Made by a program: the position numbers and the translations under genes. The notes beneath the pieces were generated by a model. That model saw only the letters and a program-made list of their open reading frames with translations, did not search any database and was not told the DNA's origin. Shown in pieces: positions 33,590-38,579 of a stretch of DNA of 64,000 nucleotides. The stretch spans positions 62,001 to 126,000 of the forward strand of contig CAJQTF010000011.1 in assembly GCA_905618945.1 (NCBI GenBank), read 5' to 3'. This DNA comes from an uncultured Methylophilaceae bacterium (GTDB taxonomy: Bacteria; Pseudomonadota; Gammaproteobacteria; Burkholderiales; Methylophilaceae). Position 1 is the first letter of the stretch, and each line of letters begins with the position of its first letter.

Positions 33590-34897
33590 ATGCAACTCAA
33601 AAGAATAATATTAGTATTAGCACAGCTTGGACTAGTTTCTGCAATTGGAGTGACTGTAGCCAAACAAACCGATGAACCAATTAAAAAAATTGATGAAATA
33701 AGTAGCCTTAGTGAAGAAAGCTGTACACAAGAAACTTTTTGGACTACTTGGTTTGATAACTCAAATCAATTTAAAGGATTTGGAGTGCCACCTAGCCAGA
33801 AAGAAATTTCAAAAGCGCAGTATAGATTTGCAGAGAATTATCATAATGGCAAAGTATTAACAAAAGATTATCAACGTGCATTAGATTTATTTACGCGTGC
33901 GGCTGACTCAGGGCTGACTCAGGCAAATTTCAAATTAGGCCTAATTAATCATTATGGGCAAGGTAAGGCAAAAGATTTATCAGAGGCATATACATATTAT
34001 GAAAAAGCCGCTGTGCATAATAGCCCTGAGGCTCAATTCAACTTAGGGTTAATGAATCGATATGGACTAGGTCGCAATAAAGATCAATATAAAGCTTACG
34101 AATGGTTTTCAAAATCAGCAAAAGATCAAACAACTTTAGATATCAATCAATGCCAAATTAAAGCTGCTGGAGTTACTGAGGCACAATTTAACCTAGCTCA
34201 AATGCATCACTATGGGATTGGAACGATTAAAGATATGACTTTAGCTGCCAAATGGTATGAAAAATCAGCGGCAAATAATATGAAAGAAGCACAATTTAAC
34301 TTAGCAAAATTATTGCTATCTGGAGAGGGGATTAACTATGATTTTGATCGAGCCATGGAAAATTATAAGCTTGCAGCAGAACAGGGGCTTGCTGAAGCAC
34401 AACTTAACTTGGCTCAAATGTATCACTATGGACCAAGCCACATCCAAAATTATTTTGAAGCGTATGCGTGGTATAAAAAATCAGCTAAACAAGGAATGCA
34501 TGAAGCAGAGTTTAATTTAGGTTTAATGGCACACTATGGCCGAGGCACAAATAAAGATTATGTTGAAGCTATGAATCACTATCTTAAAGCATCTACTAAT
34601 TCTATCCCAGAAGCAGATTTAAATATTGCATTTTTGCATCACTATGGATTAGGTACATCAATAGATCTTGATAAATCTTTTGAATATTTTACAAAAGCTG
34701 CAAAGCATAACTTTCCACAAGCACAGTATCACTTAGGACTTCTATATAAGAATGGGCAGAGTGTAGAAAAAGATTTAGATCAAGCAAATTATTGGTTTGA
34801 AAAGGCTGCTGTACAAAATTTAGACGAAGCAAAGTTAATGACAGCAGCTTTAGCTCTAAGAGAGCCAAACGACGTTGACCTTTATATAGTTAACTAA
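33590..34897 (+). CDS. secreted Sel1-repeat protein (nine repeats)
   Basis: The 435-aa product begins with a signal-like hydrophobic stretch (LKRIILVLAQLGLVSAIGVTVA) and is otherwise made of about nine Sel1-like TPR-related repeats of 36 residues, e.g. EAQFNLAQMHHYGIGTIKD. The third repeat carries an insertion (TTLDINQCQIKAAG). Sel1 repeats are protein-interaction solenoids, so a periplasmic scaffold or sensor role is possible, but no enzyme domain is seen. It is preceded by its own copy of the ECF promoter, so it is the likely output or a regulator of the upstream sigma factor. It shares the ETFW motif and repeats with the candidate anti-sigma. Confidence 0.8.
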   Translation: MQLKRIILVLAQLGLVSAIGVTVAKQTDEPIKKIDEISSLSEESCTQETFWTTWFDNSNQFKGFGVPPSQKEISKAQYRFAENYHNGKVLTKDYQRALDLFTRAADSGLTQANFKLGLINHYGQGKAKDLSEAYTYYEKAAVHNSPEAQFNLGLMNRYGLGRNKDQYKAYEWFSKSAKDQTTLDINQCQIKAAGVTEAQFNLAQMHHYGIGTIKDMTLAAKWYEKSAANNMKEAQFNLAKLLLSGEGINYDFDRAMENYKLAAEQGLAEAQLNLAQMYHYGPSHIQNYFEAYAWYKKSAKQGMHEAEFNLGLMAHYGRGTNKDYVEAMNHYLKASTNSIPEADLNIAFLHHYGLGTSIDLDKSFEYFTKAAKHNFPQAQYHLGLLYKNGQSVEKDLDQANYWFEKAAVQNLDEAKLMTAALALREPNDVDLYIVN

Positions 34898-34905
34898 GGA
34901 AGATT

Positions 34906-35028
34906 ATGTATACACGTAAAAATTTTTATATGGTTATTTTAATTATATTAGCAATGTCTTTTTTAGTAGAAGCAGTTGAGAGTGGAAACCAAAAAATAAT
35001 TGATAAGATTAATGTTTCAGTACAGTAG
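34906..35028 (+). CDS. small secreted or membrane peptide, unknown
   Basis: This 40-codon frame (MYTRKNFYMVILIILAMSFLVEAVESGNQ and so on) starts 9 nt after the Sel1 gene stop with a good ribosome-binding site (AAGGAAG). It has an N-terminal hydrophobic segment that could be a signal peptide or anchor and a short polar tail. A strong terminator follows 19 nt after its stop, so it is probably the last gene of the ECF-controlled transcript. Confidence 0.5.
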   Translation: MYTRKNFYMVILIILAMSFLVEAVESGNQKIIDKINVSVQ

Positions 35029-35046
35029 ATTTCTCCGTGAGGATTT

Positions 35047-35078
35047 GGAAGGCTTTGGCCTTCCCTTTCTTTTTTTAG
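35047..35078 (+). terminator. Rho-independent terminator after the Sel1 unit
   Basis: GGAAGGC and GCCTTCC form a perfect 7-bp stem with a TTTG loop, followed by a T-rich tract. It falls inside the long version of the next ORF, arguing for a downstream start of that ORF. Confidence 0.8.
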
Positions 35079-35203
35079 TGGAATTATTAGTAATACTAAT
35101 TCTATTTATGATGATTGGTTGTTCAACACCTACAGTTGAAGTTGGAAAGGTAACAGTTGAAATCCAAGAACAAATTAAAATTGCTCATAAAGGAGAAGAG
35201 TAA
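35078..35203 (+). CDS. small putative lipoprotein, unknown
   Basis: The ORF track frame starts at TTG 35000, but its first third overlaps the 40-aa peptide and the terminator hairpin. A start at GTG 35078 gives 41 aa: a hydrophobic stretch, a lipobox-like MIGC and a short mature part (STPTVEVGKVTVEIQEQIK). Neither start has a clear ribosome-binding site. Its stop overlaps the ATG of the next gene (TAATG), which argues that the frame is translated. No family is recognised. Confidence 0.4.
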   Translation: MELLVILILFMMIGCSTPTVEVGKVTVEIQEQIKIAHKGEE

Positions 35204-35802
35204 TGAAGTTAGAGAAAGTATTTGTGTTAATACTTATTGTGTTTATGTTCGCTCTGCCATTCAGCTACGCTAAAGCTGGCGACTCCCAAGAAATTAAATA
35301 TAAAAATTGGACTGTTGATTTTTTTATTGATGACATCATAAGATATTCTACAAATGGATCTAATGTTAATGGGCATGTATTCGGATGGCTTATTAGGCCA
35401 GGGGCATGTGATGTCGACGTTTTATATTTAGCAATATCTACTTATAAGGCTAATGCTGTTTCTCTTAAAAATAAATTAAATGGGAAAATTTTTCCTTTAA
35501 AAGTATCTTTTCCTGAAATAACTAAAATCCCTGAAACAGTAAGAATTAAAACAGATTTTCTATCTGCGATGGACTATACCCCTTCATTAACCGTTGCAAA
35601 TTTTTCTCATTTTCATATGGGCCGTACTCTTGATTTAAGAATGAGGGAATTAAAAAAGATCAAAATTGAAGTAGATAGACCCTACTCAGACTTATTCGAT
35701 ATTACTTGGGATGAATATGATTTAAATGGATATATTGCAGCTAAAGAAAAAGCTCATGATATATGTGAACAACATAGTATTAAGCTAATGGCATCAAATT
35801 AG
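35203..35802 (+). CDS. secreted protein of unknown function
   Basis: The 199-aa product has a clear signal peptide (VFVLILIVFMFALPFSYAKA, cleavage probably near AKA-GD). The mature domain of about 175 residues contains KNWTVDFFIDDIIRYST and a region rich in beta-type residues, with two cysteines (PGACDVD, HDICEQH) that could form a disulfide. It is translationally coupled to the small lipoprotein. I do not recognise a family, and nothing in the sequence shows a catalytic motif. Confidence 0.6.
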   Translation: MKLEKVFVLILIVFMFALPFSYAKAGDSQEIKYKNWTVDFFIDDIIRYSTNGSNVNGHVFGWLIRPGACDVDVLYLAISTYKANAVSLKNKLNGKIFPLKVSFPEITKIPETVRIKTDFLSAMDYTPSLTVANFSHFHMGRTLDLRMRELKKIKIEVDRPYSDLFDITWDEYDLNGYIAAKEKAHDICEQHSIKLMASN

Positions 35803-35875: not shown

Positions 35876-36499
35876 ATGAATGCTCCCCAAGGTACAGAAG
35901 AATGGCTTAAAAAAAGACTAGGTAAGATTACTGGATCAACTATTCATAAAATAATGTCACTTAAAGAGAATTCATCAACAAGATTAAAATTATTGCAAGA
36001 TTTAACTCTGGAGCGTATATCCGGCTCACCAACAAAAAATATTGTGACAGGGCCTATGGCAAGAGGTTTAGAGCTTGAATCAGAAGCAAGAAATGCTTAC
36101 GAACTAAAAAATCAAAAAGTAATTTTAACTGGATTTATTGATCACCCTACAATAAAAGAAGCTGGAGCAAGTCCTGATGGCTTAGTCGGAGAAGACGGTT
36201 TAATCGAGATTAAATGTCTTAATATAAAAAATCATAATGATATTGTAATGAAACAAACTTTACCCAAGCAATATAATCTTCAAATTCAATTTCAATTGGC
36301 ATGCACAAATAGAGCATGGTGTGATTTTGTAGCTTACCATCCTGAATCCGATCATTCACTGTATGTAAAAAGGGTTTTACCTGAATATGACCTAATAAAA
36401 GAGATTCATGAAAAAGCAATTATTTTTGTAGGCGAAGTAGAAGAAAAATATAGAGCAATGAAGGAAAGAAATTCAGAAGAGGTTTATAAATACTTATAA
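35876..36499 (+). CDS. YqaJ / lambda-exonuclease-like viral recombinase nuclease
   Basis: The 207-aa protein starts GTEEWLKKRLGKITGS, the hallmark of the YqaJ/lambda Exo family, and has the PD-(D/E)XK catalytic set: a glutamate in MARGLELESEA (about residue 66-68), Asp101 in GASPDGLVG, then Glu111 and Lys113 in LIEIKC. These nucleases degrade one strand of double-stranded ends for single-strand annealing, usually with a Beta/RecT protein. No annealing protein or other phage gene is nearby, so it is an orphan. It starts with ATG and lies 12 nt upstream of another nuclease-fold gene, probably co-transcribed. Confidence 0.85.
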   Translation: MNAPQGTEEWLKKRLGKITGSTIHKIMSLKENSSTRLKLLQDLTLERISGSPTKNIVTGPMARGLELESEARNAYELKNQKVILTGFIDHPTIKEAGASPDGLVGEDGLIEIKCLNIKNHNDIVMKQTLPKQYNLQIQFQLACTNRAWCDFVAYHPESDHSLYVKRVLPEYDLIKEIHEKAIIFVGEVEEKYRAMKERNSEEVYKYL

Positions 36500-36511
36500 A
36501 TAAAATTTTTT

Positions 36512-37318
36512 ATGATCAATTTAAAGAGAAATAGTAAATTAGAATTAGTAGAAGCAAAAGGGATTCGTAGTCGCTCCTCCTCAATATATAGTCCAAATCA
36601 ATTAGAAGATTTTAAGATTAGCCGTGGTAAATTTAATGATTTTTTAACCTGCCAGCGATGTTTTTATTTAGATCGTGTTAAAGGCTTTCAAAGTCCTGGT
36701 ATGCCAGGATGGTCATTAAACGAAACTACAGATATCTTGCTGAAAAAAGAATTTGATATTTGTAGAGCAGAACAAACGCCCCATAGAATATTTATTGAAA
36801 ATGGATTAAACCATCTTGTACCTTTTAAACATCCAGAGATGGATAATTGGAGAAACTCTCTAAGTAAGGGGCTAATGTCTCGCTTTAAAGAGACTAATAT
36901 AATTTTATCTGGCGGCATTGATGATATCTGGCAAGATACTAAGACAAAAGATTTAATCGTTGTTGACTATAAGTCTCAAGCTAGTAATTATGAGGTAAGA
37001 ACAAATTATTATTTAGAATCCCCTTATCATCAAGGCTACAAAATTCAGATGGATTTTTATAATTACTTATTAACTGTTATGGGTTTTCAGGTAGGTTCAC
37101 TATCATATTTCTTAGTCGTAAATGCGGACCGTGGGGCAGAGGGCTTTCATGGGAAGTTAGATTTTAGCGAGACATTAGTGCCGTATTCCCATAATATTAC
37201 TTGGATAACGTCTAAAGTAGATGAAATGATCGAGCTAATAAATCAAAAGACAGTACCAGAATCTAATCCTAGTTGTGAAAACTGTGCATACTCTAGGCAT
37301 AGAGCTAAAGTAGATTAG
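36512..37318 (+). CDS. PD-(D/E)XK superfamily nuclease with four cysteines
   Basis: The 268-aa protein shows the PD-(D/E)XK pattern with Asp137 (GGIDDIW) and Asp152/Lys154 (IVVDYKSQ), followed by QMDFYNYLL. An N-terminal pair CQRC (residues 47 and 50, in FLTCQRCFYLDRVKG) and a C-terminal pair CENC (in PSCENCAYSRHR) bracket the core. This resembles the iron-sulfur-clamped nuclease domains of Cas4 and AddB, though those usually use one plus three cysteines. There is no CRISPR array. Its partner may be the lambda-Exo-like gene just upstream. It is convergent with the alternative oxidase, 3 nt apart. Confidence 0.75.
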   Translation: MINLKRNSKLELVEAKGIRSRSSSIYSPNQLEDFKISRGKFNDFLTCQRCFYLDRVKGFQSPGMPGWSLNETTDILLKKEFDICRAEQTPHRIFIENGLNHLVPFKHPEMDNWRNSLSKGLMSRFKETNIILSGGIDDIWQDTKTKDLIVVDYKSQASNYEVRTNYYLESPYHQGYKIQMDFYNYLLTVMGFQVGSLSYFLVVNADRGAEGFHGKLDFSETLVPYSHNITWITSKVDEMIELINQKTVPESNPSCENCAYSRHRAKVD

Positions 37319-37321
37319 ATA

Positions 37322-37936
37322 TTATTTTTTTAAAGAATCTTGATCTAATGTGTCGGCAAGACCATGGTTTACGACTGAATGGCCCCTTTCATCTTCTCGA
37401 ACGACTTTTATGACATCAATTAATTTTGCGTCACTTTTTAATTTCCAATAATCAATTGCTATTTGAGGCGCTGGTATATTCAGCTCCGGATTCTTTTCAA
37501 CCTCTTCTAAATAACCAGTATAACTAATGACAGCCTCTTCCTCAAAGTAACCTACTAATCTGTGAGCAGTTCGTGGAAAGAATACATATAAAATAAAATA
37601 GAAATGCCAGAATAATGCTTGGGCGAACAAAATCATTGCTCTTTCGATCCAGTTAGGTTTTGCAATCTCAATAAAAGTCATGAGGTGCATCCGTTCGTTT
37701 TCTGCTTCATCAAGTAGTAATTTTATCCAGCCACGATCATTTTGCATCTTTCTTAAACACTTTAAATGTATCCACATTCCAGCTACCATCCCTGGAACAC
37801 CGGCTATAGTTTCTAAGACTACAGCTCTATGCCCATATCTTTTAGCAAAGAAAGTATCAGCAAAAAATCGTAAGAATCTAGTAATACTTAAGGCAATAAA
37901 ATCGCTAAATGTTTCAGGTCGTCTATGCTCAATCAT
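37322..37936 (-). CDS. aox: alternative (cyanide-insensitive ubiquinol) oxidase
   Basis: AOX passes electrons from ubiquinol to oxygen without pumping protons. All diiron ligands can be seen: Glu42 in LETIAGVPG, Glu81 and His84 in EAENERMHLM, a glutamate in FEEEAVISYT (about 133), and Glu183/His186 in REDERGHS. Four glutamates and two histidines are the full set. The domain is complete from MIEHRRPETF. The track start at 37969 overlaps dsbA by 29 nt; the ATG at 37936 leaves 4 nt after the dsbA stop and loses nothing conserved, so I prefer it, but neither has a clear ribosome-binding site. It is probably co-transcribed with dsbA. Confidence 0.93.
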   Translation of the reverse strand: MIEHRRPETFSDFIALSITRFLRFFADTFFAKRYGHRAVVLETIAGVPGMVAGMWIHLKCLRKMQNDRGWIKLLLDEAENERMHLMTFIEIAKPNWIERAMILFAQALFWHFYFILYVFFPRTAHRLVGYFEEEAVISYTGYLEEVEKNPELNIPAPQIAIDYWKLKSDAKLIDVIKVVREDERGHSVVNHGLADTLDQDSLKK

Positions 37937-37940
37937 AAGG

Positions 37941-38579
37941 TTATTTTTTAGCTTTATCTTTTCTAACATTTTTGATAATAAAATTCATTATGTCGATAGC
38001 ATTTTTTTCGCCACCCGCCATTGTGCTAGAGGTAAAATATTTTCCATCTATGATCATTGTTGGAACTCCAGTTGCACCGGCCGCCTTAAATATTTTAAAT
38101 GAGCGGGATAGTTTTGATTTCATCGAAAATGAATTAAAGGCTGCTTCTACATCTTTTTTATCAAGTTTTCCATTAAGGGTAATCCAATTAATAAGTGCTT
38201 TTGTATCATTATGTTTGAATATTTTTTCTTTATGTATAGCATCAAATAATTTTTCATGTAATTTGTTTACAAGCCCTAAAGACTCCAAAGCATAATATGC
38301 TTTTGCAGATGGAACCCAATCTTTTCTTGGGATTGCTGGAATTCTTTTAAAGATAACGTCTTTAGGTAAATTATCTGCCCATTTGTCTAGATAAGGATCC
38401 ATAGTGTAGCAATGACCACAGCCGTACCAAAATAATTCAACTACTTCGATTTTGTCTTTTGATTCAGTAGGAATGACTTCTTTAGTGGGTTTAAAATTGA
38501 TGCCAGGCTCAGGCTGGACAGCAAAAACAAAGTTTGAAATTGCAATTAAAATTATAAATATTATTTTTTTCATATACAC
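37941..38579 (-). CDS. dsbA: thiol:disulfide interchange protein DsbA
   Basis: DsbA introduces disulfides into periplasmic proteins. A signal peptide (KKIIFIILIAISNFVFA) is followed by the thioredoxin-fold active site CGHC at residues 54-57 (FWYGCGHCYTMD) and the cis-proline motif GVPTMI near residue 174. The 212-aa length is typical. It lies 15 nt downstream of the SPOR gene and directly upstream of the alternative oxidase. The argS-SPOR-dsbA order is also known from other gammaproteobacteria. Confidence 0.94.
   Translation of the reverse strand: MYMKKIIFIILIAISNFVFAVQPEPGINFKPTKEVIPTESKDKIEVVELFWYGCGHCYTMDPYLDKWADNLPKDVIFKRIPAIPRKDWVPSAKAYYALESLGLVNKLHEKLFDAIHKEKIFKHNDTKALINWITLNGKLDKKDVEAAFNSFSMKSKLSRSFKIFKAAGATGVPTMIIDGKYFTSSTMAGGEKNAIDIMNFIIKNVRKDKAKK

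Follow-up and report, generated by a model that had tools for sequence, protein, structure and literature searches.

The window analysed here, a stretch of 64,000 nucleotides from a streamlined marine Methylophilaceae genome of the OM43 clade (assembly of 0.99 Mb; 1.2–1.4 Mb in near-complete relatives), carries two predicted nuclease genes lying 12 nt apart on the same strand, and raises the question of whether they work together or merely lie together, and of what each of them might do. The first-pass annotation had described an orphan lambda-Exo-like gene followed by a PD-(D/E)XK nuclease with four cysteines in a two-plus-two, rather than one-plus-three, arrangement, and had proposed that the pair could be a small module for DNA-end processing or defence. 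Its description of the individual genes holds: both open reading frames have nuclease folds and lie on the plus strand, at positions 35876–36499 (gene 1, 207 amino acids) and 36512–37318 (gene 2, 268 amino acids), and the assignments and cysteine positions that it gave are those found here.

Gene 1 is a clear member of the lambda exonuclease/YqaJ family known from phage recombination modules, with profile scores above threshold for both PF09588 (5.1e-26; 92 bits against a cut-off of 22) and TIGR03033 (86.5 bits against 68). It is under purifying selection (dN/dS 0.06–0.18), and its top phage match is gp25 of Methylophilales phage Venkman, a phage of OM43 (41% identity). In Venkman the exonuclease adjoins a SAK-like gene, whereas no annealing partner was found for the host copy: RecT was absent from all 31 genomes of the genus in searches whose positive controls matched, and relatives of the OM43-phage SAK protein were absent from the same 31 genomes in a search that had no positive control. 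The annealase searches covered these two families, and on their results gene 1 does not belong to a phage exonuclease-annealase module. It would be an orphan phage-type exonuclease, acquired separately, which landed at the nuclease locus with its partner annealing protein missing, and its most likely role would be to degrade DNA ends or to recombine incoming DNA.

We then surveyed the pair across the genus, in 31 genomes. Gene 1 is present in six, marine-type gene 2 in ten, and a distant gene 2 subfamily alone in two more, so that the gene 2 family is patchy within OM43 (12/31, both subfamilies counted). Four sister genomes (G000, G017, G028 and G009) are the only ones in which the two genes adjoin each other, always at the same locus and with a spacing of 5–12 nt. 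G002 has the exonuclease at this locus and the nuclease elsewhere, on a different contig; approximately 57 kb separate the two genes in G029; and four genomes carry the nuclease without the exonuclease (G001, G012, G018 and G022, of which G001 and G018 are near-complete and single-contig). Direct comparison of the junctions indicates that one gene was inserted here, or was deleted from G002, over positions 36500–37321: in G002 the exonuclease stop codon is approximately 12 bp from a 3′ remnant of the alternative oxidase gene, with no nuclease between them.

Because some relatives have the two genes at separate sites and others have the nuclease alone, exonuclease and nuclease move independently, and an obligate two-gene module can be rejected. 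Separate occurrence in relatives is also what the first-pass annotation had named as refuting its proposal, which is supported only in part, adjacency being confined to the four sister genomes. The exonuclease was nevertheless found in no genome that lacks the nuclease (Fisher p = 2.9e-4, or 0.011 when the sister clade is collapsed). The association in 6/6 genomes leaves room for a loose link or for shared ancestry. Together with the short same-strand spacing and the purifying selection on both genes, it is what speaks for a true two-gene end-processing or defence module in OM43; however, the co-occurrence may stem from common descent, the genes are unlinked in two of the six genomes and the nuclease stands alone in four others, and the two are paired at no locus read from another phylum, which makes such a module very improbable. 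Genes 1 and 2 are probably co-transcribed within the four genomes of this clade, and the pair in the window consists mostly of chance neighbours.

The next gene downstream of gene 2, on the minus strand (37322–37969), encodes a stand-alone alternative oxidase of 215 amino acids. In congeners (L081–L085, L088–L092) the oxidase is the N-terminal part of longer proteins, one form of approximately 584 amino acids having a second half that by eye is Old-Yellow-Enzyme-like, and another of approximately 351 amino acids having a different extension; the exonuclease/nuclease pair occupies the position of this extension. Upstream of the pair, a Sel1-repeat gene is followed by a secreted hypothetical protein (33590–35802). 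The same set occurs approximately 2–4 kb from the nuclease in G001 (L098, 11708–13323), which suggests that such sets of accessory genes recur in OM43 islands.

Gene 2 matches the PDDEXK_1 family (PF12705) in a profile search (2e-8, 34.8 bits; cut-off 22), and all 28 members of a set of homologs (A1) match the same family. In an alignment of 95 homologs, nine residues never vary. Four of these are cysteines: the N-terminal pair C47-Q-R-C50, within FLTCQRCFYLDR (36650–36661, codons read directly), and the C-terminal pair C255-E-N-C258 (37274–37285). The others are D137 and D138 of catalytic motif II (G-x-x-D-D; 36920–36925), which hhalign aligns to the GKID motif of Cas4, K154 of motif III (D152-Y-K154; 36965–36973), in which D152 is kept in 93 sequences and replaced by E in two, and Q179 and Y183 of the RecB-family QxxxY motif (Q179-M-D-F-Y183; 37046–37060). 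The invariance of both cysteine pairs in 95/95 homologs indicates that the pattern is not due to chance, and dN/dS values of 0.04–0.16 point to purifying selection on the gene. AlphaFold models the protein with confidence (mean pLDDT 92.8), and the nearest solved folds are Cas4-Cas1, AdnAB, MGME1 and RecE, with moderate TM-scores (0.3–0.4); a profile search of the sequences of solved structures gave only spurious glycosidase matches.

We considered whether gene 2 is a Cas4 protein. Its scores against the Cas4 profiles lie below cut-off (TIGR00372, 16.3 bits versus 65; PF01930, 14.9 versus 22.7), and homology is remote, with an hhalign probability of 80% over the core (residues 132–262 aligned). 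In this alignment, CENC, within CENCAY, falls onto the first two C-terminal cysteines of Cas4 and the last Cas4 cysteine has no partner, as gene 2 is devoid of a third C-terminal cysteine; by eye, C47 corresponds to the single N-terminal cysteine of Cas4 and C50 is extra. All 95 homologs have two N-terminal and two C-terminal cysteines instead of the 1+3 set that four Cas4-type comparison sequences from CPR genomes have in common. Cas1 was found in none of the 31 genus genomes, and no cas gene was recognised next to gene 2 homologs in the loci read. Identity with Cas4 was rejected on the profile scores, the cysteine layout and this lack of cas context.

By its motifs and modelled fold, gene 2 is nevertheless predicted to work like a nuclease of the Cas4/AddB type. 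AddB has an Fe-S clamp, of which the terminal cysteines of gene 2 are reminiscent. The four cysteines probably bind metal at one site, a putative Fe-S cluster or zinc, that, as in Cas4 and AddB, would clamp both ends of the protein over the PD-(D/E)XK core; judging from the alignment, the simplest reading of the 2+2 layout is that one cluster ligand would have moved from the C- to the N-terminus. Characterised Cas4 proteins bind [2Fe-2S] or [4Fe-4S] clusters (PMC5704561). The nuclease domains of AddB, AdnAB and RecB have the fold and motif set of gene 2, as reflected by the structure match to AdnAB, but gene 2 is a stand-alone protein (250–270 amino acids in the family) with neither a helicase domain nor their cysteine layout. 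ACE1, an Argonaute-associated protein of the Cas4 family (PDB 9iab), illustrates how a Cas4-like nuclease can be accessory to a defence protein; its fold match to gene 2 is weak (12% identity over the aligned part), and no Argonaute was recognised next to the gene 2 family in the loci examined.

The closest parallel is with the solo-Cas4 and Cas4-like PF12705 nucleases (PMC5704561), which have in common with gene 2 the PD-(D/E)XK core, the QxxxY motif and four conserved cysteines. Both groups lie outside cas loci, are frequent in small-genome CPR bacteria and are sometimes found close to restriction or Dcm genes; the gene 2 family occurs in this way in OM43, environmental bacteria with small genomes, and in 123 of 380 sampled Patescibacteria genomes (family profile). 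It differs from solo-Cas4 in its 2+2 cysteines and sub-threshold Cas4 scores, and in a conserved stretch of its own (N70, E80-F81-D82, R85, H91 and W113-R114) that follows the N-terminal CxxC and precedes the core. It also relocates as a single reading frame, whereas inheritance of solo-cas4 was reported to be mainly vertical (Hudaiberdiev et al. 2017, PMC5704561). As solo Cas4 is already known from CPR genomes, some family members may be within the CPR set of that study; within the limited literature searched, three features appear to be new, namely the arrangement of the cysteines as 2+2, mobility on the scale of one ORF and the wide range of defence partners.

Outside Patescibacteria the family is scattered, and its members include a few on phage-like contigs. 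It was found in only one of 399 sampled Pseudomonadota, in a search whose profile and threshold differ from those used for Patescibacteria, and gene 2 gave no DNA match to E. coli. A homology scan recovered homologs of 36–72% identity labelled as OM43, SAR202, Prochlorococcus, Rhodobacteraceae, deltaproteobacteria and Robiginitalea, although some of these metagenome labels are surely mis-binned (L025, for instance, is syntenic with OM43); homologs from different lineages have nearly no neighbours in common. The tree contains a marine clade in which OM43, SAR202, Prochlorococcus, and alpha- and deltaproteobacteria are interleaved, and a Patescibacteria clade that also holds Robiginitalea and a second OM43 subfamily, so that OM43 has two separate subfamilies. 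The second OM43 copy (L101, L102, L103 and L104, in G018, G005, G007 and G022, respectively) is 33–36% identical, lies near cytosine-methylase genes in three of four cases as judged by eye and by clustering, and coexists with the marine type in G018 and G022.

Within the genus, gene 2 occupies seven or so different loci, with one empty or deleted site (that of G002); a search of the MsrP locus for another such site found none, relatives differing there in context. Between copies at different loci, DNA homology begins close to the start codon and breaks off close to the stop codon, with identities over the ORF alone of 90% (L222/L206) and 82% (L096/L105 and L192/L201), and the genes a few bases away from closely related copies are often unrelated. 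Since intergenic DNA diverges faster than coding DNA, sharp homology edges are partly expected, and the unrelated neighbours are the stronger evidence of mobility. Gene 2 thus relocates as a single gene. Inspection by eye revealed no terminal repeat, shared target site or flanking motif around the copies. Recent carriage by known phages was rejected, as none of 50,697 phage records matched and the family occurs on only about a dozen IMG/VR contigs, recovered with an alignment query (the window sequence alone matched nothing); on one of these (L110) a terminase-like gene was noted nearby by eye. Plasmid spread was rejected as well, with a single plasmid record.

At a sizeable minority of loci, gene 2 homologs directly follow, or otherwise adjoin, unrelated defence-type genes, which renders plausible the suggestion of the first-pass annotation that the nuclease is linked to defence. 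Directly adjoining genes encode SMODS/AGS-C and SLATT_4 of CBASS (L111), HerA (L115), UvrD (L114, upstream), PHP-SMC proteins matching Ppl (L113 and L116), ResIII (L110), a reverse transcriptase (L044), HsdR (L172), GmrSD (L179), NgoFVII (L200), a type III restriction enzyme (L183), a Schlafen-g3 helicase (L192), HARE-HTH (L174), Fic (L182), a Dsr1-like protein (L227), PDC-S11 (L169) and WYL; in addition, one homolog lies just upstream of MmeI (L098) and the A protein of PD-Lambda-5 is downstream of another (L171). Partners change around the nuclease. L113 and L114 have the genes further downstream in common, whereas the upstream gene is Ppl-like in the former and UvrD in the latter, and at an infB-RmuC hotspot in three related Patescibacteria (L206, L215 and L222) the nuclease is kept at approximately 90% DNA identity while the adjoining genes differ. 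Of the 57 Patescibacteria loci that have a gene upstream, 41 have it on the same strand, 30 of these within 50 bp. PADLOC matched 137 families in 94 immediate neighbours and 42 in an equal number of genes lying beyond 3 kb, a control that counts families rather than proteins and is therefore rough and suggestive only. Many loci, including that of the window, have housekeeping neighbours such as TruB, MetK, LeuS and alternative oxidase, which limits the defence association to a minority of loci.

The reading that we prefer, with a probability of about one half, is that gene 2 represents a solo RecB/Cas4-like family, mobile as a single ORF, whose members would counter invading DNA, either as stand-alone nucleases or as plug-ins to other systems. 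As a predicted active nuclease, its product would cut or resect DNA ends and would degrade or process foreign DNA, either alone or with whichever system adjoins it. Two published cases are consistent with such a role: in Synechococcus elongatus a Cas4-like nuclease limits transfer or maintenance of plasmid RSF1010 (PMC10653904), and UvrD-Cas4 fusions carrying PF12705 are found with restriction-modification genes (PMC5704561). The protein could instead be a host repair or recombination factor that resects ends or processes imported DNA; it would be of use in small genomes and would have spread horizontally with no specific role in defence. Its RecB/AddB/MGME1-like fold, its housekeeping neighbours at many loci and its presence in about a third of the sampled Patescibacteria agree with this, and solo-cas4 has been proposed to act in repair or defence in small genomes (PMC5704561); but a repair factor would hardly be expected to be so patchy within species groups, to relocate as a single gene and to be placed repeatedly and tightly beside restriction, CBASS, Ppl-like or HerA genes, and we regard it as somewhat unlikely.

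A selfish nuclease of the homing type, which by cutting DNA at hotspots favours its own insertion there or the exchange of adjoining genes, would account for the ORF-sized mobility and for a constant nuclease with changing partners. The homology that stops near the start and stop codons, the several loci within one genus, the empty or deleted G002 site and the infB-RmuC hotspot all fit this explanation, although the sharp edges lose some of their force through faster intergenic divergence. We nonetheless consider it improbable, as no target site, terminal repeat or conserved flank common to the copies was seen, and a RecB/Cas4-like fold with QxxxY is typical of end processing rather than of sequence-specific cutting. 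A broader form of the defence reading, which we put forward only tentatively and think unlikely, is that the family provides defence hotspots with a general plug-in nuclease, a single mobile ORF that stays constant while CBASS, Ppl-like, HerA and restriction systems are exchanged around it, being either a DNA-degrading effector common to these partners or itself the driver of their exchange. The family may thus represent a new component of defence islands, or a factor that drives them; being compact, strongly conserved, present in about a third of the sampled Patescibacteria and mobile as a single gene, it makes the role of a solo Cas4-like nuclease testable with one small gene.

Two further observations were made in the course of the searches. 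With the Cas4 profile, dozens of 362 Patescibacteria genomes match an open frame of approximately 1000 amino acids (L242–L269), those read resembling a UvrD-type helicase with a Cas4-like C-terminus, and strong matches to true Cas4 are rare in this set. On one IMG/VR contig (L106, 413–3305), a gene 2 homolog (64% identity) comes after genes for a T4-like late sigma factor and a gp47/SbcD-like protein, and is followed by an SRAP-like and then a cyanobacterial-looking gene; by eye, this contig is a phage/host hybrid or an integrated phage fragment.
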